From: Pseudomonadota bacterium | GTDB lineage: Bacteria > Desulfobacterota > Desulfobacteria > Desulfobacterales > RPRI01 | Reading direction: 5' to 3' | DNA: 64,000 nt | Assembly (NCBI GenBank): GCA_018817425.1 | Contig: JAHITX010000034.1 | Coordinates: 62,001-126,000, forward strand | Part shown: one piece after another, positions 23,660-40,724 of the stretch | How positions within the stretch are numbered: position 1 is the first letter of the stretch | Layout: each line of letters starts with the position of its first letter | The notes under the pieces: model-generated | What the model saw: the letters and a program-made list of their open reading frames with translations, nothing else | Told to the model about the DNA's origin: nothing | Databases searched by the model: none | Position numbers and translations under genes: made by a program

Positions 23660-25174
23660 TTATTTAAAAAGGTCTTTCATCCGGTCTGCTTCTTCCGGTG
23701 CGGCAAAAACAGGATGGCCTGAGAGTATTCCGGTAACATTGCTGAACGCCTTGCCGATGTGCATACCTTCGCCGTCAATGTTAAACTCCCTGATATCCTT
23801 GTTGTGCATGGAGCCCCGCATCTTGAGCACCGTGATCCCCCGGCGCATTTCTCCGAACATCTCCACGTACCGCAGGAGGATGATGGTGTCGGTAATGGTG
23901 GAAATGTGCGCCTCCGTAACCGATGTTCCTCCCATGAGTTCGCCGGTGGTGGATGTGAAGAGTCCCGCAACCTCCTGATGCTTGATGAAGGATGTGAGGG
24001 CGATAACAAATTCCCGGAACCCCTTTACGGTAGAAACGCGCTCCAGTGCAGAGAGCGAGTCCACGATTACCCGGTGGGGTTTGAAGTCACGGATGATGCT
24101 CTTGATGAGAATCAGATGATCCTCCAGTCCTTCCGCTTCCGGATACCGGCATACCACCTTGAGAGTTTCGTCTTTTTCCATTTGTTCAAAGTCTATTCCC
24201 CAGCCGGTGGCGTTGCGGAAAAGCTGCTGACGGCTTTCCTCAAAGGCCAATATAAGTGCCTTCTGGTTGTTATTCGCGGCTTCCGCCGCAAACCCGGCGG
24301 AGAGCATGGTCTTGCCGCAGCCAGTGGCGCCGGATACCAGGATGACGGAGTCGCGGAAAAACCCGCCGCCGCACATCTTGTCTATATCGATATTTCCGGA
24401 GCTGATGCGGACGGTGGAAGAGCGCTGTTTCAGTTCAATTCCCGACAGCGGTATGGCAACAATGCCGACGTTCTTGATCACTGTAAAGGGATACTCCCCC
24501 TTCTGGTGGCTGGTGCCGCGGAATTTGAGAATCTCCATGGTACGGCGGCGTTTTTCCGACTCAAGAACATTGCGCAGGATAATCACGTTGTCGGCGACAA
24601 ACTCTTCGATGCCGAACCGCGCGATATCTCCGTATTCCTGGGTGCGCTCGGCTGTGATGATGGCGGTTACACCCATCTGTTTCACTGCAGCGGCAATTTT
24701 GAAGAGTTCATTTCTCACAAGTCCAGGTTCCGTGAACCTTCCGAAGATCGACCCGAGGGAATCCATGCTGATCCGCCGGGCACCGATCTTTTGCACCGCA
24801 TATTCGATGCGGGCCAGCAGTGCCCCGAGGTCGTATTCTCCGGCAATGATATGGTCTTCTCCCACTACAGGAGAGGCATCCACAAAGGCCCATTTTCCTT
24901 CCTGCTCCCACCTGTCAACATCCCAGCCCAACGAGATCACGTTCTTGCGGATATCCACGGGCGGCTCCTCGAAGGTGACAAAAACGCCCGGCTCATCTTT
25001 TTTGATGATCCCTTCGGAAAGAAACTGGACTGCAAATACTGTCTTGGCGCTTCCTGAGGTGCCGGCAATCAGTGTGGTCCGACCTTTCGGAAGCCCGCCC
25101 TCACTGATCATGTCGAATCCTTCAATGCCCGTCTCGATTTTTTCTATGCCAATTCCGGCTTCGATCTCATTCAT
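23660..25174 (-). CDS. kaiC: Circadian-clock-type ATPase/kinase KaiC
   Basis: 504 residues, two tandem RecA-like domains as in cyanobacterial KaiC. CI has Walker A GTSGSAKT (38-45) and the paired catalytic Glu69-Glu70. CII has Walker A GATGCGKT and LAFEES. The phosphorylation strip [16 protein letters not shown] is conserved: Ser425 and Thr426 match cyanobacterial Ser431/Thr432, and the preceding VTE Thr matches Thr426. The C-terminus reaches the A-loop-like GILSGHPVF and ends a little shorter than cyanobacterial KaiC, so the KaiA-binding tail may be reduced. KaiC autophosphorylates and hydrolyses ATP slowly as a timing device. AAAGGAGA precedes the start, which overlaps kaiB by four bases. 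The gene is visibly more GC-rich than its surroundings. Confidence 0.95.
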
Positions 25175-25476
25175 CGTTTATCTCCTTTTTTTGTGTTGTC
25201 CCTGGCAGGCAAAAGGTCGAGTCCGAGGAGGACCTTCTCCGAATCGGATAGGTCGCCGATGATCCGCTTGAGGGGTGGCGGCAGGTCTTTGATCAAGGTC
25301 GGTGTGGCGAGAATCTTTTCATCCTCTGCAAGTTGGGGACTCTCCAGAACATCTATGATCGAGAGTTCATAGAGACCGTCCAGCTCCTTTTCGCAAATTT
25401 CTTTCAGGTTCGCGATGGCGCGCTCCGATTTTGGCGTTTTTCCGGTTATGTACAACCGTAACTTGAACTTATTCAT
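25171..25476 (-). CDS. kaiB: Clock protein KaiB
   Basis: 101 residues, matching the length of cyanobacterial KaiB. It begins with the thioredoxin-like strand [19 protein letters not shown], followed by [20 protein letters not shown], with the cis-proline region at LATPTL, and [12 protein letters not shown]. The intact LATPTL and [10 protein letters not shown] segments suggest that the fold-switching seen in clock KaiB is possible. KaiB binds the CI ring of KaiC and drives the dephosphorylation phase. AAGGAGG lies immediately upstream. A 295-base gap filled with short repeats separates it from the preceding PAS/KaiA-like gene, the only large gap in the operon. Confidence 0.94.
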
Positions 25477-25496
25477 TTTCTTCCTCCTTCGTTAGT

Positions 25497-25787
25497 AAAT
25501 AGTGAAGCGTATCTCGTGAAGCGTTGTTCGTGAAGCGTATCTCGTATCTCGTGAAGCGTATCTCGTATCTCGTGAAGCGTATCTCGTAGTTTGTCTTTCC
25601 CCGCTTCACGCTTCACGAATGACGCTTCACGTTTCTTCCCGCTTCCCGCTTCACGCTTCACGAATAACGCTTCACGTTTCTTCCCGCTTCCCGCTTCCCG
25701 CTTCACGAATAACGCTTCACGTTTTTCCCCGCTTCACGCTTCACGAATGACGCTTCACGTTTTCACCCGCTTCACGTTTTTTCCGTT
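25497..25787. repeat. Array of short direct and inverted repeats upstream of kaiB
   Basis: The octamer GTGAAGCG recurs five times in 25502-25580, at spacings of 14 or 21 bases and separated by TATCTC-type spacers. From about 25611 the complement CGCTTCACG and TTCCCGCTTCCCGC variants recur in units of roughly 60 bases. The two halves are mutually complementary, so the transcript could fold into many alternative hairpins. Spacers are not unique, which rules out CRISPR. A 77-codon open frame through it is repeat-derived. Confidence 0.85.
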
Positions 25788-26677
25788 TTTTGCCCTGCGC
25801 CCTGCGCACGGTTGCGATAGAACGACGCCAGATATCCCATCAGCTCCAGAACCATGATCCATCCTTCTCCGCTGTATGCCTTCTTTTTTTCTATGGTTGG
25901 GGCTGCCCGGCTTTTCTTCTTCAGCGCGGTCGTGTGGATATCAACAACATCACGTGGCCCGGCCCTGTGAAAACCGAGCGTTTCGGCCATAGTGCTAAGG
26001 CGCCCTGATATATCGTGCTTAACCCTGTAGGCCTGCTGCTCTAACGCAAGCTCCATCAGCTCTGCATAATTTTCCGTAAGCTTACGGAAAGTATCGGGGA
26101 ACCCGTCCTGCAAGCTCACCACGCCGTACATCCGGGCTGTTACGCCGGTTGGGGGAGGGGAGGAAAGGCCGGCCAGGGAACGCAATTCCGTCTCCAGCCG
26201 CTCTACGCGCGCCGCGTTCTCCCGTGCCTGTTGGGTCAGTTCTTCCGCCAATTTACGTTCCGTCAGATCTTCCACTATTTCGACAAAACCCACGTTTCGG
26301 CCGTTTTTGTCGGTTGTCAGGGTAAAGAGTACCCGGGCCGGAAACATAGATCCATCTTTGCGGATCTTTTCCGCCTCACAGGCAACCCGTCCCTTTTCGA
26401 GAAGTTCGGAAACAACCATTTGAAAGCGGCCTTTTGCGATAAATTCTGCCGGGAAAAAGCTTTCTATATTTTTTTTGCCGATGACCTCGTCGGGTGCATA
26501 ACCGTATATCTGATGCGCCCCTTCATTGTAGGCAATGATGTTGCCGTCGAAATCCGAGGCAATGATCGCATACCCGATGAGGCTGTCAAAGACGGCGGAT
26601 ACAAAATCGGTATTTTCCCGAAGATACTTTATCCTGTCATGAATAAGATCATTTTTGAAAGTATTTTTTTTATTCAT
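25772..26677 (-). CDS. PAS protein with KaiA/RsbU_N-like C-terminal domain
   Basis: Starts are possible upstream, but MNKKNTFKND aligns residue for residue with the beginning of the histidine kinase encoded at 29191-31092, so I use it (301 residues, 8-base overlap with the preceding gene). Residues 26-143 are a PAS domain (GYAIIASDFDGNIIAYNEGA). A short coiled coil follows at 143-170. Residues 193-289 contain LTENYAELMELALEQQAYRV and PRDVVDIHTTALKK, then YSGEGWIMVLELMGYLASFY. This pattern matches the RsbU N-terminal/KaiA C-terminal four-helix type of domain. Next to kaiB and kaiC, it may feed a PAS-sensed signal to KaiC, as KaiA does. The PAS call is firm; the KaiA-like call is pattern-based. 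Confidence 0.75.
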   Translation of the reverse strand: MNKKNTFKNDLIHDRIKYLRENTDFVSAVFDSLIGYAIIASDFDGNIIAYNEGAHQIYGYAPDEVIGKKNIESFFPAEFIAKGRFQMVVSELLEKGRVACEAEKIRKDGSMFPARVLFTLTTDKNGRNVGFVEIVEDLTERKLAEELTQQARENAARVERLETELRSLAGLSSPPPTGVTARMYGVVSLQDGFPDTFRKLTENYAELMELALEQQAYRVKHDISGRLSTMAETLGFHRAGPRDVVDIHTTALKKKSRAAPTIEKKKAYSGEGWIMVLELMGYLASFYRNRAQGAGQKTEKT

Positions 26678-28739
26678 TAATCCCTTTGTTGTCATTTTCC
26701 TGATATACCACAATTCTGTTCCTGCCTTGCTCCTTTGCCTGATAAAGAGCTGTGTCAGCCCTTTTTATCAGTTCAGCTTGAGATTGCTCCCAAAAGCTGT
26801 TGTCTAAAGCAGCAATACCAATACTGCCGGTTATCTTGAATTTATAGTCATCATATTCAAATTCATGCACGGATAGTTTCTTTATAAACCGTTTTGAAAG
26901 TTGTACTGCATTGTCCATATTGGTATTGGTTAAAATAATGGCAAACTCCTCTCCGCCATATCGGCAGGCTACATCACTTCCCCGGATGCAATCTTTCAAT
27001 ATTTTTCCTATCTCGGACAAAACCTTGTCTCCGGCAGAATGTCCATATGTATCGTTTATGTTTTTGAAATGATCGAGATCGACTATGCATAACGCAAGGG
27101 CCTCATGATACCTTTTTGATCTTTCTGTTTCACGCTCCAGTACCTCACCAAAATAGCGCCGGTTATAAAGGCCTGTAAGTTCATCGTGAGTTGACATTTC
27201 AGCTATCTTTTTCATAGCTTCCCTAACATCTCTTTGCAGACGGTGCTTCTCCATGGTATTTGTTATGCTTCTGAAGAAGGATTTTTCGCTGAGCAGGTGT
27301 TTCGGAATATAATCGTAAGCGCCTTCCTGGATCATTTGTGAGGCAATAACCTCACTTCCCTGTCCCGTCAGAACAATCACGGGAATTTTTATACCTTCCC
27401 GCTTAACCATCCTCAGAAAGTCAAGACCGGTGCCGTCTGCAAACATATAATCTAAAAAAATAACATCAAAGTGAGTTTTTTTAACTGCCTGTAATGCATC
27501 ACCGACATTGTCTATCCATGTCACGACAATGTCACCCCGATTCTTTACTATGGATGAGATTTTTTCAAAATCATTTTGCGTGTCCTCTACGGAGAGGATA
27601 TTGAGCTTCTGGTCAAGGTTTATAATGGGATCTCCGGAAACATTCGGGCGTTTTTCATTACTCCGAAAGGACTGTATGTTTTTTACGATATTCGCAATTT
27701 CGTGCCCGGCATTTTCAATTCTGTTGATATCGACATCAAGTTCTTTCGGATATGCTTTTTTCAGCTTCAAAATCTCTATGCCTGTCAGAATGGCCATCAG
27801 TGGCTGGTTCAACTCATGCGCCGTAGCACCCGATAATTGGAGTAATAATTTGAGCCGTTCCTCTTCAATAACCGATTTCTGTTGATTACGGATCATCTGG
27901 TTTGCTTTCTTTAGCTCCGCCACACTCGATTCAAGCTCGTTTTTTGTCTTATTAAGGTTTACCTCCATGCTTTTTCTTTCCGTTATATCTATCATAACAC
28001 CCACAAGGCCATCTACATTTCCACGATTTTTTGTAAAGGTTGCCATATTGAGCAAGACATCGTGTAAGGTTCCGTCCGCATATTGCACCTGTGTTTCATA
28101 AAACTGGACACCAGGATTCTCAAACAGCTTTTGATCCATCTTATTAATTCGCTCGGCCGACTCTCCCGGTGCCACGTCATAAATTGTTTTCCCGATGATA
28201 GCATCTTTGGATAAACCAAGACTGGATTCGAAGGCCTTGTTGCACCCGGTATATTCCCCTTTGGTATTCTTATAGAAAATAGGGTTGGGAATGGTATCTA
28301 TTAGTGTTTCAAGAAAAGCAAAATAGTCCAGCAGGATATTTTCCGTATTCTTCGAGTCAATAATCTTATGGATTGAGTTAAGAAAAAGATATTCCGTTAA
28401 TTCTCCCTTTACCATATAATCGGAAGCGCAGTTTTTCAATGCATCCACCGCAATTGCTTCGTTGCCCTGACCGGTAAGAAAGATACTTGGAATCCGTCGC
28501 AGCTGATCATGCTCTGATAGTGTTTTTAAAAACTCTATACCATCCATATCAGGCAACCTGTAATCAATAAGGATGCAATTAAACTGTTCTGAGTGTAATA
28601 GTTTCAGCGCCTCTTCGCCGTTATCGGACTCCTTTATAAGATATTCATAGGCGGTGTCTTTTATGAGAAATCTTTTATATAACTCCCGGTCCTCATGGCT
28701 GTCTTCTACGATTAACATACTAAGCTGTGTCTTTTGCAT
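26670..28739 (-). CDS. REC-PAS-DHp-REC-GGDEF signalling protein
   Basis: 689 residues. REC1 (1-125) has IVEDSHED, the phosphoacceptor in LIDYRLPDMDG and a PSIFLTGQG switch. A PAS domain follows (about 140-260), then a dimerisation/phosphotransfer helix pair with a canonical H-box (GATAHELNQPLMA, about 300-370) but no HATPase domain after it. REC2 (about 385-505) has FLDYMFADGTG. A GGDEF domain (about 515-685) carries STHDELTGLYNRRYF and YGGEEF, so c-di-GMP synthesis is expected; its inhibitory RxxD site reads RGSD. The protein appears to be an output hub receiving phosphate from another kinase, possibly the neighbouring PAS kinase or CheA. It starts five bases after the small response regulator gene. 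Confidence 0.88.
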   Translation of the reverse strand: MQKTQLSMLIVEDSHEDRELYKRFLIKDTAYEYLIKESDNGEEALKLLHSEQFNCILIDYRLPDMDGIEFLKTLSEHDQLRRIPSIFLTGQGNEAIAVDALKNCASDYMVKGELTEYLFLNSIHKIIDSKNTENILLDYFAFLETLIDTIPNPIFYKNTKGEYTGCNKAFESSLGLSKDAIIGKTIYDVAPGESAERINKMDQKLFENPGVQFYETQVQYADGTLHDVLLNMATFTKNRGNVDGLVGVMIDITERKSMEVNLNKTKNELESSVAELKKANQMIRNQQKSVIEEERLKLLLQLSGATAHELNQPLMAILTGIEILKLKKAYPKELDVDINRIENAGHEIANIVKNIQSFRSNEKRPNVSGDPIINLDQKLNILSVEDTQNDFEKISSIVKNRGDIVVTWIDNVGDALQAVKKTHFDVIFLDYMFADGTGLDFLRMVKREGIKIPVIVLTGQGSEVIASQMIQEGAYDYIPKHLLSEKSFFRSITNTMEKHRLQRDVREAMKKIAEMSTHDELTGLYNRRYFGEVLERETERSKRYHEALALCIVDLDHFKNINDTYGHSAGDKVLSEIGKILKDCIRGSDVACRYGGEEFAIILTNTNMDNAVQLSKRFIKKLSVHEFEYDDYKFKITGSIGIAALDNSFWEQSQAELIKRADTALYQAKEQGRNRIVVYQENDNKGINE

Positions 28740-28744
28740 CTTTT

Positions 28745-29194
28745 CTATTCTCCCTTAGGAAGTATAACTATCTCAAACCAGTAATCTGTAAGCTGCTGGA
28801 TTGATTTAATAAAGTTATCTAAATTTAGCGGCTTGCATATATAGCTATTCGCACCGTCTTCGTAGCAGCGATCAATATCTCTTTCATCATTTGAGGTGGT
28901 TAACACAACAACCGGTATTTTCTTGAGATAGTCGTGCGATTTGATATCTTTTAACACATCGCGCCCGTCGCTGCCGGGCAAGTTGAGATCAAGCAGGATT
29001 AGGCCAGGTATGGGAAATTTACTTTGATCTGTGTATGGACCGCGTCTGTGCAGGTAATCAAGGGCATCGTCTCCGCTTTCACATCGGATTATCGGGTTGG
29101 AAAGGCCTGCTTTTCTAAACGCCCTGATGGTGGCTTCGTAGTCCTCATGACTGTCTTCTACAATCAGAATGGGTTGGTTCACTTTTAAATTCAT
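28745..29194 (-). CDS. Single-domain response regulator, Rcp1-like
   Basis: 149 residues, a stand-alone receiver domain. It shows ILIVEDSHEDYEA (acidic pocket), the phosphoacceptor in LILLDLNLPGSDG, the switch Thr in VVLTTSND and the Lys in ICKPLNL. The insertion HRRGPYTDQSKFPIPG and the extended C-terminus are typical of the Rcp1 subgroup that serves phytochrome-type and PAS kinases. It overlaps the upstream histidine kinase by four bases (ATGA), so that kinase is its likely partner. Confidence 0.9.
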   Translation of the reverse strand: MNLKVNQPILIVEDSHEDYEATIRAFRKAGLSNPIIRCESGDDALDYLHRRGPYTDQSKFPIPGLILLDLNLPGSDGRDVLKDIKSHDYLKKIPVVVLTTSNDERDIDRCYEDGANSYICKPLNLDNFIKSIQQLTDYWFEIVILPKGE

Positions 29195-31092
29195 TCATCA
29201 TCTCCATGTAAGGTAAAATAGAACGTAGTCCCTTCACCGAAGGTCGATTCGGCCCATAACCTTCCATGGTGGAGTTCTATAATTTTCTTGACGATAGTCA
29301 ATCCGATACCCGTACCCCCGCCGTATTTATCTTTTGCGTGAAGCCTCTTGAATATGGTGAAAATCTTATCCAAATGATTTTCTTTGATACCGATTCCGTT
29401 ATCTTTCACATAGAAAATCCGATGGGAATTATCTTTCAATTTAACGGATTGTTTATGCCTTGCTTCTATTGGAGCCGACGATTGGGTTATATAACCTACT
29501 TCTATAATCTGTTTGGGTTTATCATTATATTTTAAGGCGTTTGTAATAAGATTTGAAAAAACTGCATAGATCCGGACGCGGTCACACAAAACTTCAGGCA
29601 GAGGCCGGGGGACAAGGATGTTGATGTCGCCATCCTGGAAGGCGGCCCTCACCGATTCGATTGTATGAGCAATAACAGTATTGAGATCAACATTTTCAAC
29701 GGCCAATTCAACCCTTCCGACACGTGAATATTCAAGAAGCGACTGAATGAGTTTTTCCTGATGGTTGGAAAGTCGTATCAGAGTTTCCAGCTTTGACCGG
29801 CCATCGGCATCAAGTTTGTCTCCATAATCTTCCATAAGAAACGAGCAGTAATTTATGATGCCACGGAGCGGCTCCCGTAAGTCATGGGATGCAATATAGG
29901 CAAAGTCATCAAGCTCTTTGTTGCTTTTTGCCAGTTCTATATTTTTTAGCTCAAGCTCATCTTCCGCATTTTTTAAAGCAGTAATATCGATAGAACAACC
30001 AATAATACCTGTAATACCATCCTTAGCATTCCTGTAAGGTATCTTGTCGGTTTTGACCCAGATGGTTCCGTAAGGTGTTTGCATGGGCTCTATTATGTCT
30101 CTTTTCGCAACTCCGGCAGCCATAACTTCCTTGTCGTCGCTCCAGTACTTTTCTGCCAGGTCAGGAAAAAGCTCGAAGCAAGTTTTACCTTCCATCTGTT
30201 CTACCGTCATTGCTGAAGCTTTTGCTAATGCCCGGTTTATCCGGACAAACCTGTTTTCGGTGTTTTTGTAAAAGATCATTGCAGGAATAGCATCAAGAAG
30301 AATTTGCTGTTCTTCCTGCTTTTGCCTCAACAACATTTCTGCGTTTTTGAGGGCGGTTATATCATGAAACATGGCAAGATATGCTTTTTCCCCATCCCAC
30401 TCTATATCCGCAATACGCATTTCAGCTAAAACATTCTCATATGAGGCCGGCCTGACGATGTCGGTTTCTTTCCACTCTCCTAAAATGGTGGGGAATCCAA
30501 AACAAGATCCCAACAGTTCTTCTTTTGGGCGTGCAAACAAGGTCTCTGCGGCCGGATTAACAAAATGGATTACCCCATCCCCGTCCACGATCATTATACT
30601 GTCGGTATTGGTTTCGATAATCCGGCGCAATTTATCTTCTCCGGCTTTTATACTGTTTTCTGCATGTTTTTGGGCAGTCAGATCCTGTACAATTTCAACA
30701 AAACCTGCAATTTGATCACTCTTGTCTTTTGCCAGGGTAAAGAGGCTATGAGAAGGAAACCTGCTGCCGTCCTTCTTAACTTTCTCGCCTTCATAAGAAA
30801 AACTACCATTTCCGATAAGCTCGGAAATAATATGTTCCAGTTCTCCTTCTTTGATAAATTCTTCCGGTAAGAATATCTCAATGTTTTCCTTACCTACTAC
30901 TTCTTCAGGGGCGTAACCGTAAATTTGGTGAGCTCCTTCGTTATATGTAATAATATTGCCGTCAAAATCCGCAACAATAATCGCATAACCTATGAGGTTG
31001 TCAAAGATGGAGGATACAAAATCGGTGTTTTCCCGGAGATACTGGATTCTCTCCTGCATAAGACCATTTTTATGAGTAGTTTTTTCATCCAT
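29191..31092 (-). CDS. Multi-PAS cytoplasmic histidine kinase
   Basis: 633 residues without membrane segments. PAS1 (about 25-143) is a close paralogue of the PAS domain in the KaiA-like protein. PAS2 (about 150-255) and PAS3 (about 265-385) follow. HisKA (about 395-465) has the phosphoacceptor in YIASHDLREPLRG. HATPase_c (about 500-630) has the N-box region ITNALKYNDK, DNGIGIK and GGTGIGLTIVKK. The kinase core is of the phytochrome-like family, which matches the Rcp1-like regulator that overlaps it. Its start overlaps the end of cheD by 8 bases, tying it to the chemosensory genes. Signal unknown; cofactor ligands for heme or flavin are not obvious. Confidence 0.92.
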   Translation of the reverse strand: MDEKTTHKNGLMQERIQYLRENTDFVSSIFDNLIGYAIIVADFDGNIITYNEGAHQIYGYAPEEVVGKENIEIFLPEEFIKEGELEHIISELIGNGSFSYEGEKVKKDGSRFPSHSLFTLAKDKSDQIAGFVEIVQDLTAQKHAENSIKAGEDKLRRIIETNTDSIMIVDGDGVIHFVNPAAETLFARPKEELLGSCFGFPTILGEWKETDIVRPASYENVLAEMRIADIEWDGEKAYLAMFHDITALKNAEMLLRQKQEEQQILLDAIPAMIFYKNTENRFVRINRALAKASAMTVEQMEGKTCFELFPDLAEKYWSDDKEVMAAGVAKRDIIEPMQTPYGTIWVKTDKIPYRNAKDGITGIIGCSIDITALKNAEDELELKNIELAKSNKELDDFAYIASHDLREPLRGIINYCSFLMEDYGDKLDADGRSKLETLIRLSNHQEKLIQSLLEYSRVGRVELAVENVDLNTVIAHTIESVRAAFQDGDINILVPRPLPEVLCDRVRIYAVFSNLITNALKYNDKPKQIIEVGYITQSSAPIEARHKQSVKLKDNSHRIFYVKDNGIGIKENHLDKIFTIFKRLHAKDKYGGGTGIGLTIVKKIIELHHGRLWAESTFGEGTTFYFTLHGDDE

Positions 31093-31645
31093 TATCGATG
31101 ATCTCCCTAACCACCCCTTCGATTGTCCTGACCACTACCCGGCCTGAATCTATATGAAAATCAACACTTCTTCCCTGGCTGCCGCCCGTATCCTCACCAA
31201 TGACGGATATCTTTTCTCTTTTCAAAAGATTCTTGATACTCATAATGTTTCTCGCACCCATGCCGTTTACGGTTGGTTCTCCGTCTGAAAACATTCTGGC
31301 CCCGCCGGTAATCATTGCGTAAATATTAGACGATAAAGCCCCCATACACGTCATTTCCTTAAAAAGAGCCTTAAGGGCGGTATCGGCGTAGAGGTAAGGA
31401 GGCTTATCCGGGTGGGCAATCATTTTCCCCCACTGTTTTTCTTCATTATCGCGGTAGCACTGCCCGTATTCACATGACGATTGAACAGGCGAGCTGGGCA
31501 GCAGGATGTGCGCCAGTCCTCCGATACGTGACCCCGGGTCATAGAGCATCAATACTACGCAGGAACCCAGCCCTACAGAAGTAATAACCGCCGGTGCCCT
31601 TCTGACCGTCCCTTCCCCCATATTGACAATAATACGTTTATCCAC
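31085..31645 (-). CDS. cheD: Chemoreceptor glutamine deamidase CheD
   Basis: 186 residues. The catalytic pair is visible: Cys in GLGSCVVLMLYDP and His in GGLAHILLP; the third conserved element is MITGGARMF, followed by NIMSIKNLL and EDTGGSQGRSVDF. CheD deamidates receptor glutamines and also binds CheC to enhance its phosphatase activity. It overlaps cheC upstream by 8 bases, as expected for such a pair. The substrate here is probably the poly-HAMP receptor encoded earlier in the operon. Confidence 0.93.
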   Translation of the reverse strand: MDKRIIVNMGEGTVRRAPAVITSVGLGSCVVLMLYDPGSRIGGLAHILLPSSPVQSSCEYGQCYRDNEEKQWGKMIAHPDKPPYLYADTALKALFKEMTCMGALSSNIYAMITGGARMFSDGEPTVNGMGARNIMSIKNLLKREKISVIGEDTGGSQGRSVDFHIDSGRVVVRTIEGVVREIIDNG

Positions 31646-32273
31646 GGGCGATTATCTGTGCCTCCCTGATAGAATCAGTAAGGATTTTCAGCGAATTGGC
31701 ATCGGGAATCATGATTAAATAAGTATCAATCGCCTCATCCTGTTCAGCCGCTAAAAATTTGTTGACTATAATAATCAGCAACTCGTTTTTAGCGCTCATT
31801 ATTGCAATGGTTTCATCCAGAACGGCTTGTGCCATATCGGTTGCGGCAACCGGAATGGTATGGTAGATGTTCAGTCGGCAGAAATCATGGATTGATGTAA
31901 GATATACACCGGCAAGGATATTGCCGATCTCTTCAAAGACCGGTATACCTGACCTGTCGCCGCTCTTTACAGTCAACCCCACTGATAATCCGGCTAAAGT
32001 TTCGAGTCTCTTCTGCTGTTTCAAAGGAACAACGAAAAACATCTTTCCCGTGCAGTCGCCAATCATATTCATTTTAACACAGGTTACAGTCTGGGCCGGA
32101 TCACCAATGACCGAAAAGGCTTTATGGGGTGCAATGGCGTGAATAGCAGGCATGCACATCTCAAACCTGCTTTTGAGGAGCTGCTCCAGGGCAGTGGCGG
32201 CGTTGCCGGCTCCGATATTCATCATCTCCTCTATATAATCTATCTGCTCCGGAGAAAGTATATTCTTTGTCAT
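31638..32273 (-). CDS. cheC: CheY-P phosphatase CheC
   Basis: 211 residues with the duplicated phosphatase motif: EEMMNIGAGNAATALEQLL near the N-terminus and FEEIGNILAGVYLTSIHDF in the middle. Both retain the Glu and Asn used to dephosphorylate CheY-P. CheC usually acts with CheD, which overlaps it here. It lies 11 bases after cheA. Presence of CheC instead of CheZ is normal for non-enteric chemosensory systems. Confidence 0.92.
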   Translation of the reverse strand: MTKNILSPEQIDYIEEMMNIGAGNAATALEQLLKSRFEMCMPAIHAIAPHKAFSVIGDPAQTVTCVKMNMIGDCTGKMFFVVPLKQQKRLETLAGLSVGLTVKSGDRSGIPVFEEIGNILAGVYLTSIHDFCRLNIYHTIPVAATDMAQAVLDETIAIMSAKNELLIIIVNKFLAAEQDEAIDTYLIMIPDANSLKILTDSIREAQIIARG

Positions 32274-32284
32274 GTTTCAACTCC

Positions 32285-34234
32285 TCATTTATGTATTAAT
32301 GTCTCTAAGTCAAATAACCTTGCCATATCGAGGAGGAGGGCAACACTACCGTCCGGCAAAATCGTGCCTCCCGAAAAGCCCCTGAAGGTCTGGGCTATCG
32401 TATCAAAGGGTTTAATGATATTCTCCATCTGGTCAATTACGGCATCGACGCCTACAGCAACAAAATCATCTCCCCGGTAGATAATAACAACCACACTGGT
32501 ATTATCCTGTTCACCGGTGTCTATGTTCAAAAGTTTTTTCAGCCTGATGAATGGAAGGGCTTCATTTCGCAGGATGAATACCTCCCGGTTCCCGACCCTT
32601 TTGATATTTTCCTTATTGACTTCCATTGTTTCCAGCACTGCATTGGAGGGCAAGAGAAAAACGTGTTTGCCTACGCCGATCATCAATGTCTGCATGATTG
32701 CCTGAGCAATCGGCAGTTTCATGGAAAAGCGCGTACCGGCACCCTTCCTGGTAAATATCTCAACCGTTCCGCCAAGTTTTTCTGCGGCTGTCTTTACGAT
32801 GTCCAGCCCTACCCCTCTTCCGGAAAGACCCGTTATCTCCGATGCACTGCTGAAGCCAGGCTTAAAAAGCATGGAAAGAATATCTTTTTCCTGCATGTTT
32901 CCGGCTTCTTCCAAAGTAATATGGTTTTTTCTTATCGCTATTTCTTTTATTGCTTCCGCATCAATTCCGGACCCATCATCTTCTACTTCGATTACGATGT
33001 GATTTTCCGTCTGTTTTGCCGAAAGTTTGATTAGCCCCCGCCTTACTTTATTATGCTGCTCACGCACTTCAGGTGATTCTATTCCATGACCTACGGCATT
33101 TCGAAGTAAATGCATCAATGGCTGGCCGATTTCATTGAGAACGCTCTTATCCAGTTCCGTATCGCTGCCCTCGACAAGCATTTCCACCTCTTTTAGTTTC
33201 TCCAGGGCAATATCCCTGACCATTTTCGGAAACTTTAAAAAGATTTCCTCAACTGGTACCATGCGTGCGGAAGAGACCTTCTCCTGAAGTTCTGTGATGA
33301 TGTGGTTTAAGGAGATCATGACGCTCTTCATATCTTTCGTGAGAATATTCGCAACAAGGTTGTTAAGACGGTTGCGGGAAATAATCAGCTCACCGACTAA
33401 ATTAAAAAGGGCGTCAATAAGGTCTACATGTATTTTAACGGTTTGTATCTTTTCAATTTCAGAGATGGTTTTTTTCTTTATTTCATAAACGGATGCATCC
33501 TTTATGACCCCTATCAAGACATTCTTCTCACCTAAATTCACGTCGCTTACAGCCAATTCCATTGGAAAGGTGGTGCCGTCTCTGCGAAGACCTTGTACAT
33601 GACGTCCTGCGCTTAACCCCAAAGCCTTATCGGTCTTGAGATAATGCTCAATGTAGGCATCGTAATTCTGTTGATAAGTGTCAGGCACCAGCATTCTGAC
33701 ATTCTGCCCAACGACCTCAGAGGAGGGATAAAGAAATATTAGTTCTGCGGCAGTATTAAAAGCTTCAATGATGCCATTTTGATCAATAACAATAATCCCC
33801 AGACGTGAAAGCATTTCTTTGGATTCAAGATAGGCCATTTTTTCCCGGATCGTTTCAACCATCTTCTGATTTGTGTCGGATAATTGTATCTTTGCCCCTT
33901 TTGCTGCCCGCTCTTTGACAATGACTTCCATCGCATCATTGGCTTCGAAGAGAAAATCCACCGTATCCTTATCAACAGGGATTTCCTGCTTTATGAGACG
34001 GGACATGAAATCTTCGCATCGGTGTGCGAAATCGCTGATATCAATGAAATTCAGCATACTGGAAGAACTTTTTAATGTATGGAAATTCCTTAATATATTA
34101 TCCAGATGATCCTTTCCGGTATAATCTTTTTCAAGGGCAAGAATGGACCTGTTCACCTCCTGAAAAACCTCCTTGGCGTCAAAGAGGTAATCTTCCATAA
34201 ACATTGCTAAATCAATTTTATCTATGTCTGTCAT
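32285..34234 (-). CDS. cheA: Chemotaxis-type histidine kinase CheA with inserted PAS domain
   Basis: 649 residues. Hpt domain (1-110) with the phosphoacceptor His52 in NFHTLKSSSSML. A PAS domain (about 140-255, LGIIVIDQNGIIEAFNTAAE) replaces the usual P2 CheY-docking domain. P3 dimerisation helices follow (about 265-325). The HATPase (about 330-510) has LLRNAVGHGIESPE, the G1 box VEDDGSGID and GRGVGLDIVKTAAEKLGG. A CheW-like domain (about 515-640) closes the protein. It autophosphorylates and passes phosphate to CheY and CheB. The PAS insertion lets the kinase sense a cytoplasmic signal directly. All catalytic elements look intact. Confidence 0.94.
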   Translation of the reverse strand: MTDIDKIDLAMFMEDYLFDAKEVFQEVNRSILALEKDYTGKDHLDNILRNFHTLKSSSSMLNFIDISDFAHRCEDFMSRLIKQEIPVDKDTVDFLFEANDAMEVIVKERAAKGAKIQLSDTNQKMVETIREKMAYLESKEMLSRLGIIVIDQNGIIEAFNTAAELIFLYPSSEVVGQNVRMLVPDTYQQNYDAYIEHYLKTDKALGLSAGRHVQGLRRDGTTFPMELAVSDVNLGEKNVLIGVIKDASVYEIKKKTISEIEKIQTVKIHVDLIDALFNLVGELIISRNRLNNLVANILTKDMKSVMISLNHIITELQEKVSSARMVPVEEIFLKFPKMVRDIALEKLKEVEMLVEGSDTELDKSVLNEIGQPLMHLLRNAVGHGIESPEVREQHNKVRRGLIKLSAKQTENHIVIEVEDDGSGIDAEAIKEIAIRKNHITLEEAGNMQEKDILSMLFKPGFSSASEITGLSGRGVGLDIVKTAAEKLGGTVEIFTRKGAGTRFSMKLPIAQAIMQTLMIGVGKHVFLLPSNAVLETMEVNKENIKRVGNREVFILRNEALPFIRLKKLLNIDTGEQDNTSVVVIIYRGDDFVAVGVDAVIDQMENIIKPFDTIAQTFRGFSGGTILPDGSVALLLDMARLFDLETLIHK

Positions 34235-34247
34235 AACAGGTTCTTTC

Positions 34248-35267
34248 CTAAACGACTTTCATAATTGTTTTTGCTATATCCTGCAGGGGTGCCACCGTAT
34301 CGACACATCCAAGTGCAATGGCTGCTTTGGGCATACCAAACACAACACATGTGGACTCGTCCTGAACAATCGTGCTTCCTCCGGCCTTCCTGATGGCCTG
34401 TAAACCCTTGGCGCCGTCACTGCCCATACCGGTAAGGAGGACACCGACAACATCTTCGCCATAGGCCTTGACTACAGATTCCATGGTGTAATCTATAGAT
34501 TGCAGTTTGCCCGGCTTGCCGCTAAGTTTAATCCTTTTATGTATACCATCTTCTATAATGCCGGTTTGTACTTCCCCGGGAGCGACAAAGACCCTGCCCG
34601 GACTTATGATGTCATTATCTTCGGCCAATGAAACATTTAAGGAACATTCTCCATTTAAATGTGCCGCAAAAAACGGTGTGAAATTTTTATCCATATGCTG
34701 AACGACCAGAATGCCGGCGGCAATGGAGGAGTGGATACCGGAAAGTACAATGGCGTTTGCATTTGGCCCTCCTGTGGAGGCGCCGATGACAACCATCTTT
34801 TTTCCCGTTGCTTTTTTGCCCTCTCTTATCTCATAAGATTCTTCGGGCAGACTGTATTTAATTCTGCTGACATGGGCTTTTGCCGCCATATGGACTTTGT
34901 TGATAATTTCGTCCTTTATAATATCTATATCATATGAGACTTCCCCTTTTGTCTTCTGTATGTAATCCACAGCCCCCAACCGCAGGGATTTAAGCACAAC
35001 GGTCATATCCCTTTTGTCAACCCCGCTTAAGATCAGCACCGGTGTCGGGCACTTATCCATAATGTGCGTCAGGGCGACCAGCCCATCCATCATGGGCATA
35101 GCAATGTCGAGAAGTACTACATCAGGTCGGTGCTCCTTCACCTTAAGCACAGCCGCCTCACCGTTATCAGCTGTGTCCACAACATCTATCAAAGGATCAG
35201 TCTTCAGGAGATAGGATATGGACTTTCTCATGAAGCTCGAATCATCGACTATGAGGACCCTAATCAT
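34248..35267 (-). CDS. cheB: Chemotaxis response regulator methylesterase CheB
   Basis: 339 residues. The receiver domain (1-120) has VLIVDDSSFMRKS and the phosphoacceptor in VVLLDIAMPMMDG. The methylesterase domain (about 155-335) has the catalytic Ser in GASTGGPNANA, His in VVQHMDKNFTP and Asp in LTGMGSDGAKG. CheB demethylates receptor glutamates. No CheR methyltransferase gene is present in the window, so the methyl groups must be added by an enzyme encoded elsewhere or by none. It sits between cheY and cheA with short gaps. Confidence 0.94.
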   Translation of the reverse strand: MIRVLIVDDSSFMRKSISYLLKTDPLIDVVDTADNGEAAVLKVKEHRPDVVLLDIAMPMMDGLVALTHIMDKCPTPVLILSGVDKRDMTVVLKSLRLGAVDYIQKTKGEVSYDIDIIKDEIINKVHMAAKAHVSRIKYSLPEESYEIREGKKATGKKMVVIGASTGGPNANAIVLSGIHSSIAAGILVVQHMDKNFTPFFAAHLNGECSLNVSLAEDNDIISPGRVFVAPGEVQTGIIEDGIHKRIKLSGKPGKLQSIDYTMESVVKAYGEDVVGVLLTGMGSDGAKGLQAIRKAGGSTIVQDESTCVVFGMPKAAIALGCVDTVAPLQDIAKTIMKVV

Positions 35268-35289
35268 ATATACTGATCCTTGCCGTCAT

Positions 35290-35652: not shown

Positions 35653-35655
35653 ACC

Positions 35656-36258
35656 TCAACTCCTCCTTTTTCTATCATATATCTCGTTATCGACATCTAC
35701 GGATGCTGCTTCAATCTTCGCTGTAATATTTCCATCCTCAAACTCCGGGCTGCCAAGAGCCTGTTTAATTTTTTCAAGATTAGGCATTTCTGTTCCGTCA
35801 AGAATCTTTTTAATATCAAGCATGATAACCATTCTTTTGTTTACCATGCCTATACCGGTTATCGGCTCGTCTTCCATCACATTGTTTGTTGATGCGGGCA
35901 GTTTGTGCACCAGATCATCGGGAATTTTTATGACCTCTTCTACGGAATCAACCGTCATACCTATGGGAAAGCCCTTGTGCTCGATAACGATAATGCGGGT
36001 TTCCTCATCATACGGTTTTTGTTCGAACCCGATTTTTTTACGAAAATTAATAACAGTGGATAATCTGCCCCGCAGATTGGCAACGCCGTCAATATAAGAT
36101 AAAGAATTGGGAACCTGAGTCAATTCCAGCGGTCTTGAGATTTCCTGAACCCACATGGCCTGAATACAGAACTCCTGGACGTTGATCTTAAAAACAAGAT
36201 ACTGGTCCTGTTCAATTTCTTCTATCTCAGTATCGTCATTTATAATCTGCTCCTTCAT
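35656..36258 (-). CDS. cheW: Chemotaxis adaptor CheW
   Basis: 200 residues. A CheW/SH3-like fold (about 15-155) shows [51 protein letters not shown] and [16 protein letters not shown]-terminal extension of about 40 residues is charged and probably flexible. CheW links the receptor tip to CheA. Its start overlaps the receptor gene by four bases (ATGA), indicating coupled translation. Confidence 0.93.
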
Positions 36259-39200
36259 GTTTTGCTCCTCTCCATTTTCCTTGTCACTTTTGACACTACT
36301 ACCTCCTCAACTGTAAATCGTTCCACGGTCTTTTGGAAGTTTTCAGACATATCGGCCAGGTTTGTTGCGATGGCCGTCAGCTCCTGCATCTTGCCAAGTA
36401 GCCTTTTGGAGCCTTCCGCCGACTGGGTGGCAGCGGTAGATGTGTCGGCAGCGATACCGCTGATCTTGTCAAGACTCTGGGAAACAGCATCGATGCTGTT
36501 CTTCTGATCGGCGGCGGCCTTCGAAATTTCCATTGATGTAGTGGATGTTACGTCAATAGAACGGTCAATATCCTTAAATGAGCTGGAGGTTAATTCGATG
36601 GAATCTTTCACCAGCCTGACATTACCGGCCATGGTCTTGATCGTTAGTGCCGTATCTTGCGTTTCGCCCATAACCGACTGGACAAGAGTCGATATCTTTT
36701 TTGCCTGCAATTTGCTGTCGGCAGACAAGGTCTTGACCTCTTCGGCAACAACAGCAAAACCCTTACCCTGCTTGCCGGCACGAACGGCCTCAATTGCGGC
36801 ATTGATGGCAAGTATATTTGTCTGGGTTGCAATATCCCGGATCACATCTACAATTTCCTGGATCTGTTCACTGCTTTTGCTAAGTGATTCAATCCTTCCT
36901 ACGGATTCATTTGAACCTTCAAGCATCAGGTCCGTGTTCTTGATCGTTTCTTCCATAGCTTTGCGGCCTTCGCCCGTTGCCTTAGTGGCTACTTCCGTAT
37001 GCTGGTTCATGCTTTCCGCCTGGGTCAGCGTATTGGATGCCGTTTTTCCAACTCCCTCGCTTTCGCTTGACGCCTCGACAATCTGTTGAGCCTGAGCCTT
37101 GGCACCCTCTGCTATCTGTTCAATAGTGCCGGAAAGCTGGGACAGGAGAGCATTCATTTCCTGGCCTGCACCGAGCGTCTTCTGAGATACTGTACCGATA
37201 TTTATACCTGCATTCCGGAGTTCCGAAACAATGCCTTTGAGACTTTCTATGGTGCTGTTTATACCGTCAACCATAGAAGCAAAATCTCCTACTGCATTAA
37301 CGTCTACCATCTGCGAGAGGTTGCCTTCGCCTACCATGGACATCACGGCATTAATGTTACCGATAATGCTGTTAAGGGTGTCCACCATGCCATTGATCGT
37401 ATTTTTTAATTCGAGCATTTCGCCACGGGCTTCAACCGTAATCTTTCGGGAAAGATCTCCTTCGAAAATTGCCATTGTGACCTTTGAAATACCCCGCACC
37501 TGCGAAGTAAGGCTTCCTGCCATGGCATTCACGTTATCGGTCAATTCCTTCCACGTGCCGGCTACACCTGGAACTATCGCCTGGCCGCCTAATTTTCCGT
37601 CGGTACCAACCTCCCGGGCCACACGGGTTACCTCGCCGGCAAAGATGTTGAGGTTGTCAACCATTTTGTTGATCGTGTTTTTTAACTCCTGAATCTCCCC
37701 CTGGGCCTCAACAGTGATCTTTTGGGAAAGTTCACCGTTTGCAACAGCGGTCGTGACAACGGCAATATTTCTGACCTGGCTGGTCAGATTGTCCGCCAGC
37801 ATGTTTACATTGTCAGTCAGTTCCTTCCATGTGCCGGCCACTCCCGGCACCTCAGCCTGTGCGCCCAGCTTGCCTTCCACTCCTACTTCTCTTGCCACCC
37901 TCGTAACCTCGCTTCCAAACAGATTGAGATTGTCAACCATGGAATTGAGAGTTCCTTTTAAGCCTGCAATCTCTCCCGATGCCTCAACAGTTATTTTCTG
38001 AGTTAAATCTCCTGCGCTTATGGCTGTGGCTACCATGGCTATGTTTCTTACCTGGTTGCTCAGATTGGCCGCCAGCATATTTACATTTTCTGTCAGTTCC
38101 TTCCATGTGCCGGCCACTCCCGGCACCGCAGCCTGTGCGCCCAGCTTGCCTTCAACTCCTACTTCTCTTGCCACACGCGTAACTTCGCTTCCAAACAGAT
38201 TGAGGTTGTCAACCATGGAATTGAGAGTTCCCTTTAAGCCTGCAATCTCTCCCGATGCCTCAACGGTTATCTTCTGGGTTAAATCTCCTGCGCTTATAGC
38301 TGTAGCTACCATGGCTATGTTTCTTACCTGGTTGCTCAGATTGGCCGCCAGCATATTTACATTTTCAGTCAGTTCCTTCCATGTGCCGGTTGCACCCGGA
38401 ACCTCAGCCTGACCGCCCAGCTTGCCTTCGCCGCCGACCTCTTTGGAAACCCTGGTTACTTCGCCCGCGAAAGTGCTTAATTGACCAACCATTGTGTTGA
38501 TCGTGTCTTTTAACTGCTGAATCTCACCGCTGGCCTCAACTGTTATCTTCTGAGTTAAATCTCCTGCGCTTATGGCTGTGGCTACCATGGCTATGTTTCT
38601 TACCTGGTTGCTCAGATTGGCCGCCAGCATATTGACATTTTCCGTCAGTTCTTTCCATGTACCGGTTGCACCCGGAACCTCAGCCTGACCACCCAGCTTA
38701 CCTTCGCCGCCGACCTCTTTGGAAACCCTGGTTACTTCGCCCGCGAAAGTGCTTAATTGATCAACCATTGTGTTGATCGTGTCTTTTAACTGCTGAATCT
38801 CACCGCTGGCCTCAACGGTTATCTTCCTGGTTAAATCACCCTGGGCTACACCTGTGGTCACTTCAGCTATGTTTCTAACCTGGCTGGTCAGATTGTCCGC
38901 CAGCATGTTTACATTATCTGTCAGATCCTTCCATGTGCCGGCCACCCCGAGCACTTCAGCCTGTGCGCCCAGCTTGCCTTCCACGCCTACTTCTCTTGCC
39001 ACCCTCGTAACCTCTGAAGCGAAACCGCTTAACTGATCAACCATTCGGTTGATAGTATCTTTCAACTGCAGGATCTCCCCCTGAGCCTCAACAGTGATCT
39101 TTTGGGAAAGCTCCCCGTTTGCAACAGCAGTCGTGACAACGGCAATATTGCGGACCTGATTGGTGAGATTGGCTGCCATCATGTTTACATTGTCCGTTAA

Positions 39201-40703
39201 TTCCTTCCATGTTCCGCCGACCCCCTTTACCTCTGCCTGGCCACCCAGCTTACCTTCGATACCAACCTCTTTCGAAACACGGGTTACTTCTGAGGCGAAG
39301 CTGCTCAACTGATCAACCATTCGGTTGATGGTATCTTTCAACTGCAGGATTTCCCCCTGAGCCTCAACTGTAATCTTCTGGGAGAGTTCGCCATTGGCAA
39401 CAGCAGTAGTGACAACGGCAATATTTCTAACCTGGCTGGTGAGGTTGGCCGCCATCATGTTTACATTGTCCGTTAATTCCTTCCATGTTCCGGCTACACT
39501 GGGAACCTCAGCCTGGCCACCCAGCTGCCCTTCGATGCCGACCTCTCTGGCCACACGGGTTACCTCGCCGGTGAAGGTGCTGAGGTTGTCAACCATCTTG
39601 TTTACCGTATTCTTCAATTCAAGGATCTCACCTTTTACATCAACGGTAACCTTCTGGGAGAGATCCCCGTTGGCAACAGCTGTTGTTACGACGGCAACAT
39701 TTCTGACCTGGCTGGTGAGGTTGGCCGCCATCATGTTTACATTGTCCGTTAATTCCTTCCATGTGCCGGCTACAGCGGGAACCTCTGCCTGGCCGCCCAG
39801 CTGCCCCTCGATACCAACCTCTCTGGCCACTCGAGCAACCTCGCTGGCGAAAGTATTGAGGTTGTCAACCATCTTATTTACCGTATTCTTCAATTCAAGG
39901 ATTTCGCCTTTTGCCTCAACAGTGATCTTCTGGGAAAGCTCCCCGTTGGCAACAGCAGTAGTTACAACGGCAATATTGCGGACCTGATTGGTGAGGTTAG
40001 CCGCCATCATATTGACGTTTTCCGTTAATTCCTTCCATGTACCGCCAACCCCCTGCACTTCTGCCTGACCGCCAAGCTTTCCATCGGTGCCGACTTCTCT
40101 GGCCACACGGGTTACCTCTGAGGCAAAGCTGCTTAACTGGTCGACCATCATGTTGACTCTGTTGCCGATTTTTAAGAATTCACCTTTCAATTGCCTTCCA
40201 TCGATTTCCAAAGCCATTTTATTTGAAAGGTTTCCCTCGGCAACACTGCTGATAACACGGCCGAATTCTTCTGTAGGTTGGACGAGATAATTTATGAAAG
40301 AATTTACTGATTCAACACTGGTCCTCCATGAACCGGTTACCGGTCCGATCGCGATACGCTCTGATACCTTCCCTTCATGACCGATAATCTCACTTATACG
40401 TACAAAATCATCGGATAACCTCCTGTTTAATTCAATAACATCGTTAAACACATCGGCAATATCGGCCATGATGCCACCGTGTCGGTCAAAATCCAGCCTT
40501 ACGTTAAAATCACCTGCTCTTACAGCCTTGAGAGCGTTTAATAACATCTTCAAACTATTATCAGCAGTATTGAGCTGGTTTGGTGTGTCTTTGCCTGAGT
40601 TATTGATAAAGTCAACCTCGCCCGCAGCAACATCGTTATTTTCTTCTTTATCCGGAAAGAAAACAGATCTTCCGGGCTTGCGTTCCTTTTTTATAGCTTT
40701 CAT
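36255..40703 (-). CDS. Giant soluble poly-HAMP methyl-accepting chemotaxis protein
   Basis: 1482 residues with no membrane segment or periplasmic domain. Residues 50-220 are HAMP-like. From Gly221 to about 1140 there are ten tandem 92-residue units, each starting GTWKELT, with repeated [25 protein letters not shown] and INKMVDQL segments (paired HAMP domains). Residues about 1190-1470 form the kinase-control hairpin, with tip [20 protein letters not shown], which deviates from the common LLALNAAIEAARAGE. The unit sequence resembles the HAMP arrays of fungal group III histidine kinases (Nik1/OS-1). The receptor likely sits in a cytoplasmic array with CheA and CheW and may sense osmotic or intracellular cues. 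Units 7 and 8 are almost identical, pointing to recent unequal recombination. Confidence 0.92.
37284..40043 (-). repeat. Ten-copy 276-bp intragenic tandem repeat (HAMP array)
   Basis: The DNA encoding the receptor's GTWKELT units repeats with a strict 276-base period over about 2.76 kb. Adjacent units near 37980-38120 and 38256-38396 are nearly identical at the nucleotide level, while outer units have diverged more. The copy number may vary between strains. Confidence 0.9.
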
Positions 40704-40724
40704 AATATTTCCCTTCTTTTCTAA

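Follow-up and report, generated by a model that had tools for sequence, protein, structure and literature searches.

The stretch of 64,000 nucleotides analysed here (the window), from a relative of sulfate-reducing bacteria, contains a kai locus that bears on which inputs may set Kai-type timers in bacteria other than cyanobacteria, and on whether these could run rhythmically without light. On one strand, a gene cluster runs in the order ParA-like protein, chemoreceptor, CheW, CheB, CheA, CheC, CheD, histidine kinase, REC, REC-PAS-REC-GGDEF protein, PAS-KaiA protein, KaiB and KaiC, with overlaps or gaps of no more than 21 bases except in two places, ahead of cheB (388 bp) and of kaiB (295 bp). 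The features that the following account draws on are these:

23660..25174, minus strand: kaiC, 504 aa, KaiC3-like (PF06745, E 1.5e-113)
25171..25476, minus strand: kaiB, 101 aa (PF07689, E 7e-29)
25502..25781, minus strand: tandem repeats rich in GTGAAGCG, filling the 295 bp that separate kaiA from kaiB and touching the last bases of kaiA
25772..26677, minus strand: PAS-KaiA3-type gene, an open frame of 301 aa from the ATG at 26677
25799..26113, minus strand: KaiA3-type C-terminal domain, residues 189–293 (by homology and predicted fold)
26171..26263, minus strand: predicted long linking helix, residues 139–169
26252..26596, minus strand: PAS domain of the KaiA3-type protein, residues ~28–142 (Pfam PAS_9)
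26670..28739, minus strand: REC-PAS-(weak HisKA)-REC-GGDEF protein (Pfam)
28745..29194, minus strand: single-domain response regulator, REC (Pfam)
29191..31092, minus strand: PAS-PAS-PAS histidine kinase (Pfam), its first PAS being close kin of the KaiA-protein PAS
31085..31645, minus strand: cheD (Pfam)
31638..32273, minus strand: cheC (Pfam)
32285..34234, minus strand: cheA, with Hpt, PAS, kinase and CheW-like domains (Pfam)
34248..35267, minus strand: cheB
35656..36258, minus strand: cheW
36255..40703, minus strand: chemoreceptor (roughly ten HAMP repeats, MCP signalling domain)

At its start, the gene that lies immediately before kaiB shares 8 bases with the end of the preceding REC-PAS-REC-GGDEF gene, and an alternative in-frame start at the ATG at 26695 is possible. 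Its product carries an N-terminal PAS domain (PAS_9, E 2.5e-15, 57.1 bits against a Pfam cut-off of 27), and the NCBIfam matches of this PAS to named sensors all lie far below cut-off and so point to no particular cofactor. The last 150 residues give nothing above a Pfam cut-off, and the C-terminal domain is covered by no Pfam or NCBIfam family. A full-length AlphaFold2 model, built from a 4-row alignment (mean pLDDT 75, pTM 0.48), places the long linking helix between the PAS and the C-terminal domain, and the latter is predicted to comprise four long helices (residues 194–217, 223–236, 241–258 and 262–293). The tail of the protein is shorter than the C-termini of its relatives; the missing residues fall outside the predicted domain.

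The closest characterised relative of this protein is KaiA3 of Synechocystis (Sll0485), which is described as extending to residue 299, carrying D65 and forming a unit with kaiB3, with kaiC3 located elsewhere, and which promotes KaiC3 phosphorylation in vitro, opposed by KaiB3 (Koebler et al. 2024, PMC11372060). Our comparison used, in place of Sll0485, a protein of Synechocystis salina (L017), which we take as the KaiA3 counterpart because its size (299 aa from the ATG), its Asp at position 65 and its kaiB linkage agree with the published protein; its kaiB is followed by no kaiC. The window C-domain is 53% identical to that of L017 over 112 residues and 46–54% identical to nine cyanobacterial KaiA3-type C-domains (best 53–54% over 112–118 residues), and this comparison together with a joint alignment relates it to the C-domain of Sll0485. 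Judged by its sequence, the domain is thus a homologue of KaiA3 and not an unrelated analogue, and the label "functional analogue" of KaiA given by the first-pass annotation has to be replaced. The broader proposal made there, a PAS-sensing KaiA-like protein beside kaiB, is borne out by the C-domain homology, the PAS_9 match and the kaiB gene downstream. Like KaiA3, the window protein combines this C-domain with a position directly upstream of kaiB and a partner KaiC of the KaiC3 group; unlike KaiA3, it begins with a PAS sensor and lacks the NarL-type receiver, for which the Pfam search returned no Response_reg match, and its gene sits in a chemosensory operon. Strict KaiA3 status fails because the receiver is absent and a PAS stands in its stead, and by sequence the protein is best placed in the family defined by the KaiA3-type C-domain, as a member that carries a PAS. 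Herein lies its novelty, as KaiA3 in its published form carries a receiver domain.

The C-domain is no chance reading of the frame, because it is conserved across genomes of the same phylum and among named genomes. When the C-terminal 139 residues of the window protein were searched against 395 genomes of the phylum (E <= 0.01), 11 genomes gave matches; seven of these, among them the genome of the window itself, are strong (E < 1e-20) and four are weak. In all seven strong cases the domain lies upstream of kaiB, and it is preceded by a receiver in five and by a PAS in two. The four weak matches (L009–L012, E 0.002–0.009) were rejected, as no KaiB was found in any of their loci; L009 was read as a LuxR/NarL-like regulator and L010–L012 as other proteins. 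A scan of named genomes, which rested on a single degenerate ten-residue pattern and therefore sets a lower bound, yielded at least 17 loci with titles spanning at least four phyla: nine from Cyanobacteria, five labelled Deltaproteobacteria, Desulfobacteraceae or Thermodesulfobacteriota, two labelled Dehalococcoidia or Chloroflexaceae and one Candidatus Tectomicrobia. Four of these (L014, L026, L028 and L029) are contigs already in the phylum set, so that the two sets overlap. A further search met L014, L026 and L028 once more and is not counted as independent. kaiB follows the C-domain gene in 16 of the 17, the exception being L027 (Chloroflexaceae). Viral contigs held no relative of the domain. 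The five non-cyanobacterial genera for which KaiA3 orthologues are named in the text of Koebler et al. (PMC11372060) include Roseiflexus and Chloroflexus, both Chloroflexota, and do not include the phylum of the window; some Chloroflexota PAS forms may already have been counted there, unremarked.

The window kaiB is the only kaiB match in its genome at E <= 0.001 (5.1 Mb, 147 contigs), and kaiC, which overlaps it by 4 bases, is the only frame with two full KaiC-domain matches: six such matches exist in the genome, two of which are the halves of this protein and the other four partial and weak (E 8e-11 or worse). The window KaiC bears a HISTITD phosphosite motif and a short tail that ends about 20 residues past its SGHP segment. 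It is 67–69% identical to the KaiC proteins encoded beside cyanobacterial KaiA3-type genes, 53–54% to KaiC1 and 36–38% to three KaiC2-like proteins found in the same phylum (L084–L086); these three, aligned as KaiA-less examples, possess long C-terminal extensions, a KaiC2 feature that the window KaiC lacks. The gene order directly upstream of kaiB and the KaiC3-group KaiC are both those of the KaiA3 family. kaiB scores above cut-off in 40 of the 395 phylum genomes, and the type of KaiC was tallied at the loci of the 30 best-scoring of these 40. The KaiA3-type C-domain is present at all six loci whose KaiC is more than 60% identical to that of the window and at none of the 21 whose KaiC is 38% identical or less; at the remaining three no KaiC is in view, and one of them has the domain. 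The KaiA-type domain therefore travels with the KaiC3-like kind of KaiC. The first-pass expectation that non-cyanobacterial kaiBC loci usually lack a KaiA thus holds in this phylum only for the KaiC2-like loci, which are the majority (21 of the 27 tallied kaiB loci that show a KaiC), and breaks down at the loci with the more similar KaiC. The former resemble the KaiA-independent KaiBC2 timers of the Rhodobacter type described in PMC11372060 in having KaiB and KaiC outside cyanobacteria; the window locus differs from them, as the KaiC2-like proteins of the phylum are at most 38% identical to its KaiC and have no KaiA-type C-domain in view.

How the domain relates to canonical KaiA was approached through structure prediction and profile comparison. 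AlphaFold2 applied to 18 C-domains gave a mean pLDDT of 85, with block means of 95–98 over model residues 41–140. Against the PDB, Foldseek placed KaiA C-domains at ranks 1–4 (5jwr twice, 1q6a and 1v2z; probability 0.87–0.99, E 0.09–0.2), with designed proteins next at 0.2–0.3 and no match below E 0.001. VIA-align returned eight KaiA entries at Z 9.9–11.2 over 90–107 residues, together with the stressosome-related 3zta, which ties with them at Z 10.9, 2bnl at 8.4 and a designed bundle at 7.9, on a scale where values below about 13 may be common among helical bundles. The predicted model thus shows the four-helix fold of the KaiA C-domain, a comparison that the first-pass annotation had suggested and that ranks KaiA first among solved structures, not decisively; the match does not count by itself, its weight coming from KaiA heading the two lists and from the adjoining kaiBC genes. 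At the level of sequence, the similarity to canonical KaiA is remote. hhalign aligned the KaiA3-type profile with that of KaiA over the last ~90 residues (probability 44%, E 2e-4), and with 55 C-domains the score rose to 31.9 (probability 50%), whereas 60 controls with shuffled columns reached 23.1 at most. Among 4049 frames, a set enriched in Kai loci in which most E-values are not significant alone and only rank is to be read, the KaiA3 profile found canonical KaiA next after its own kind (8 of 9, E 0.0015–0.84, with one unrelated frame, L011, interspersed), and the KaiA profile found three cyanobacterial KaiA3-type proteins as its next best (E 0.004–0.017). A PDB profile search with a 7-row C-domain alignment reached no KaiA up to E 10; its weak matches, such as glucokinase (best E 0.048), were rejected. 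PF07688, the KaiA family (Pfam cut-off 22.2 bits), gives no match in the window protein and sub-threshold matches in KaiA3-type relatives (E 0.0079 in one of 18 cyanobacterial proteins, 0.024 in L047 and 0.13 in L139). Residues that make the KaiA–KaiC contact are reported to be less conserved in KaiA3 and KaiC3 (Koebler et al., PMC11372060). With the canonical KaiA of Synechococcus, the window protein hence has in common a predicted C-terminal bundle, a place upstream of kaiBC and a sensor-type N-terminal half; it differs in that the similarity emerges by profile comparison only and does not reach PF07688, and in bearing a PAS where KaiA has a pseudo-receiver.

The C-terminal 100 residues had also been taken in the first-pass reading to match the RsbU N-terminal domain, a reading that the searches do not bear out. 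The KaiA bundle is one that RsbU_N reportedly has as well (PMC11372060). PF08673 is not reported in the window protein at a maximum E of 10, where filters drop most matches above about 0.1, and the whole genome of the window holds no match up to E 10. The resemblance in sequence is faint: one distant Chloroflexota relative (L112) gives a sub-threshold RsbU_N match, at E 0.019. The 50 rows of the Foldseek and VIA-align lists hold no RsbU entry, an absence that proves nothing. The bundle is thus reported as common to both; the window protein differs from RsbU in having neither a sequence match nor a phosphatase domain and in standing in another neighbourhood, and membership of its C-domain in RsbU_N was rejected for want of a Pfam match in the protein or the genome.

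The PAS half has its closest kin within the same operon. The window KaiA-PAS is about 60–64% identical to the first PAS of the operon histidine kinase; this kinase PAS heads the six other matches of the KaiA-PAS in the genome at E <= 1e-5, the next best being 33% identical. The KaiA-PAS and the kinase PAS of one locus are likewise 60% identical in L143, 68% in L014 and 70% in L013, and in all four loci the likeness includes the N-terminal helix. In L014 and L013 the kinase with the related PAS stands after kaiC, and no such kinase PAS occurs in the fetched stretches of L142 or L016, the latter of which stops inside kaiC. The KaiA-PAS of L014 is closer to the window kinase PAS (76%) than to that of its own kinase (68%). 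Because these identities split the sequences into no KaiA-PAS and kinase-PAS groups, they do not fix the number and direction of PAS exchanges. The PAS form was found in six loci, namely the window, L143, L014, L142, L013 and L016. In the C-domain tree, four PAS rows fall on one side (support 82/64 with a KaiA outgroup and 76/30 without), three of them firmly together (100/100), which gives weak support to a PAS clade and neither shows nor excludes a single origin of the PAS form. In the KaiC tree, the Chloroflexota PAS row L016, a partial sequence, stands apart from the other three, and no firm branch forbids their grouping; L016 is a 3.5-kb contig at coverage 1.0, which makes its assignment to Dehalococcoidia uncertain. 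We infer that a receiver was replaced by a PAS rather than the reverse, because both KaiA3 and KaiA carry a receiver or pseudo-receiver; the root is not fixed.

CheC and CheD precede the PAS-KaiA gene in all six PAS-form loci (27% and 35% identical in L013), and cheD is the nearest tested upstream gene in four of the six. Among 26 other KaiA3-type loci, several on short contigs and with room for diverged copies to be missed, neither gene was found at E 1e-6, and a CheA-like match occurs in two, L025 (24%) and L141 (33%). L025, L026 and L028, whose KaiA3 is of the receiver type, have instead a gene for a histidine kinase and one for a REC protein immediately upstream of it. In the window and L143, genes for a histidine kinase, a REC protein and a REC-PAS-GGDEF protein lie directly between cheD and kaiA. 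The kaiA–kaiB repeat gap of the window has no counterpart in the PAS-form relatives L143, L013 and L014. Scans for promoters and terminators came out near chance (37 versus 29.5 +/- 4.8 and 22 versus 18.9 +/- 4.8, respectively).

From homology and gene context, we consider it quite probable that the product of this gene belongs to the KaiA3 family and activates the KaiC encoded next to it, a PAS sensor having replaced the receiver. The C-terminal four-helix domain, probably as a dimer, would bind the short C-terminal tail of KaiC and keep the KaiC A-loop out, so that autophosphorylation at the S-T pair would rise; KaiB on phosphorylated KaiC would later capture the activator, and KaiC would dephosphorylate. 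The PAS may set the activity of the KaiA domain by way of the long helix, such that a small-molecule or redox signal would tune the timer directly, without receiver phosphorylation, and the operon histidine kinase, with its closely related PAS, would probably read that signal or one akin to it. The domain make-up, the homology to KaiA3, a fold prediction, the linkage to KaiB and a KaiC3-type KaiC and the PAS kinship are what the analysis shows; that the protein dimerises, binds KaiC, raises its phosphorylation, answers to a signal or takes part in an oscillation is inferred.

That the KaiA-type domain might merely dock the protein onto KaiC or KaiB, with the PAS pairing with that of the operon kinase, so that clock state would be carried out to the kinase in an output or scaffold role without stimulation of KaiC, is a reading we regard as unlikely. 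The 60–70% identity between the two PAS domains in the window, L143, L014 and L013, and the signalling genes interposed between cheD and kaiA in the window and L143, speak for such an adaptor; however, its closest characterised relative, KaiA3, stimulates KaiC3 in the published assays (PMC11372060), and the fetched stretch of L142 contains no kinase bearing such a PAS, so that the pairing cannot be called universal from these loci, L016 breaking off within kaiC. Decay is less probable again. The repeat-filled 295-bp gap and the shortened C-terminus could mark loss of function in the window genome, and the C-domain occurs in just two of the nine same-genus genomes listed; yet all frames are open, the lost residues lie outside the predicted domain, and the same-genus L143 is 88% identical in the PAS-KaiA protein, 97% in KaiB and 95% in KaiC. 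Least credible of all is an RsbU_N-like partner-binding domain serving a partner-switching (RsbT/STAS) or other phosphatase pathway, with kaiB nearby by accident. The bundle reportedly common to RsbU_N and KaiA (PMC11372060), the PF08673 score of L112 (E 0.019) and the stressosome-type structural neighbours 3zta (Z 10.9) and 2bnl (Z 8.4) speak for it; against it stand the lack of any reported PF08673 match in the window protein or genome and the company that the C-domain keeps, in phylum after phylum, with kaiBC loci of the KaiC3 type, a pattern not to be expected of an accidental neighbour, which makes this reading unlikely. An activator of KaiC with a PAS as its input domain, working as KaiA3 does, remains our preferred reading.

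Full-text literature searching, which took in few subscription papers, found in the text that it covered no PAS-, MASE3- or binding-protein-fused KaiA and no kai–chemotaxis operon. The words PAS and chemotaxis are absent from the main text of Koebler et al. (PMC11372060), and the kinase signalling to the KaiA3 receiver is there said not to have been identified. Dvornyk and Mei describe OmpR, REC, AtoC and PHA02030 as N-terminal parts of KaiA, with no PAS in the text, and place KaiA outside cyanobacteria in marine and freshwater bacteria, two of them named (PMC8113500). A 2011 survey of kaiC neighbourhoods mentions nearby signalling proteins and, in the text concerned, no KaiA relative (PMC3164672), and a 2023 paper on magnetotactic Nitrospirota treats kaiBC clusters as KaiA-less in its relevant passages (PMC10278575). 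Against this background, a sensor that is either fused to the KaiA domain, as in the PAS type, or encoded beside it, as the histidine kinase and REC genes of L025, L026 and L028, offers concrete input pairs. Natural sensor swaps on one KaiC-activating domain would make the timer-setting signal testable in vitro with purified proteins, and the chemotaxis genes linked to all six loci of the PAS form point to a process on which the timer may act or through which it may be read.

The PAS is one of several sensors found on this domain. Within the class of the window, a profile search detected the C-domain in eight of 389 genomes, the window included, and in all eight directly before kaiB and kaiC. 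Three have the PAS form; L135 has another single PAS, and L138 has a receiver cut by the contig end. L136 and L137 join a MASE3 membrane domain and a weak GAF to the KaiA3-type C-domain, and L134/L139 is a 950-residue frame with two SBP_bac_3 matches and two PAS domains. The phylum to which the Dehalococcoidia-labelled genome belongs has matches in 24 of 301 genomes, at 34 places; Pfam tallies for 30 of these 34 loci give 18 with PAS, 11 with a receiver and one, L103, with neither, and kaiB and kaiC lie within ~1.5 kb in 20 of the 30. Beyond the single PAS, KaiA3-type C-domains thus occur on double PAS, MASE3 and periplasmic-binding/PAS proteins, mostly beside kaiBC. The phylum of Synechocystis has the C-domain in 19 of 234 genomes, with a receiver in all 18 frames scanned (L168, broken by stops, lies outside these 18, and L169, one of the 18, is a weak relative without kaiB). 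Sensor variety was therefore seen only outside Cyanobacteria in the genomes sampled. Some of the cyanobacterial receivers are without the phospho-acceptor, having Asn in L021 and L023 and Glu in L022.

These combinations suggest that, outside cyanobacteria, a clock-like timer can take its input directly from any of a wide range of sensors. A more far-reaching proposal, on which we are evenly divided, is that the KaiA-type C-domain would be a general plug-in output module carried by PAS, double PAS, receiver, MASE3 and periplasmic-binding receptor proteins, through which non-photosynthetic KaiBC timers would be set directly by ligands or redox state; the timer in the lineage of the window would then form a branch of the chemosensory pathway with which it shares an operon, the PAS domains of its KaiA protein and kinase being matched. 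As a minor observation on the periplasmic-binding form, a transmembrane stretch was read by eye from the sequence of L139.

Along the minus strand of the window, a chemosensory cluster carries the kai genes at its end; its extent and its other members are listed here.

23660-41540, minus strand (kai genes included): ParA, a HAMP-rich receptor, CheW, CheB, CheA, CheC and CheD

CheC and CheD lie upstream of kaiA in all six loci that encode the PAS form, the matches in the related locus L013 being weak, and neither was found in any of the 26 other KaiA3-type loci searched. Within the receptor gene, positions 37543-40154 consist of tandem DNA repeats of 276 bp; these are present in about 8-9.5 copies, are ~80% alike and correspond to the receptor's run of ~ten HAMP domains.

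Other sensors are also fused to the KaiA3-type C-domain, as seen in three relatives from the window's class.

L139, 2714-5563, minus strand: 950-residue frame with two SBP_bac_3 (periplasmic-binding) matches, two PAS domains and the C-domain
L136, 232-1845, plus strand: MASE3 membrane sensor domain fused to the C-domain
L137, 1458-3071, minus strand: MASE3 membrane sensor domain fused to the C-domain

The L139 frame lies upstream of kaiB and kaiC, which likewise come after the MASE3 fusion gene in both L136 and L137. In the Chloroflexota sample, kaiB and kaiC are absent within ~1.5 kb of the receiver-KaiA genes of L106-L109, L113, L122, L129 and L130; several of these genomes also encode a kaiBC-linked PAS-KaiA, and the receiver proteins could possibly serve as second inputs to one clock. 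Among cyanobacterial KaiA3-type proteins, the receivers of L021, L022 and L023 have Asn or Glu in place of the phospho-aspartate, and the C-domain of L168, a locus with neither kaiB nor kaiC in view, is interrupted by four stop codons.

The gap between kaiA and kaiB in the window is filled by tandem repeats (25502-25781), with GTGAAGCG-like units of 7 to 45 bp. The two genes overlap in L013 and L014, and only a short distance separates them in L143.
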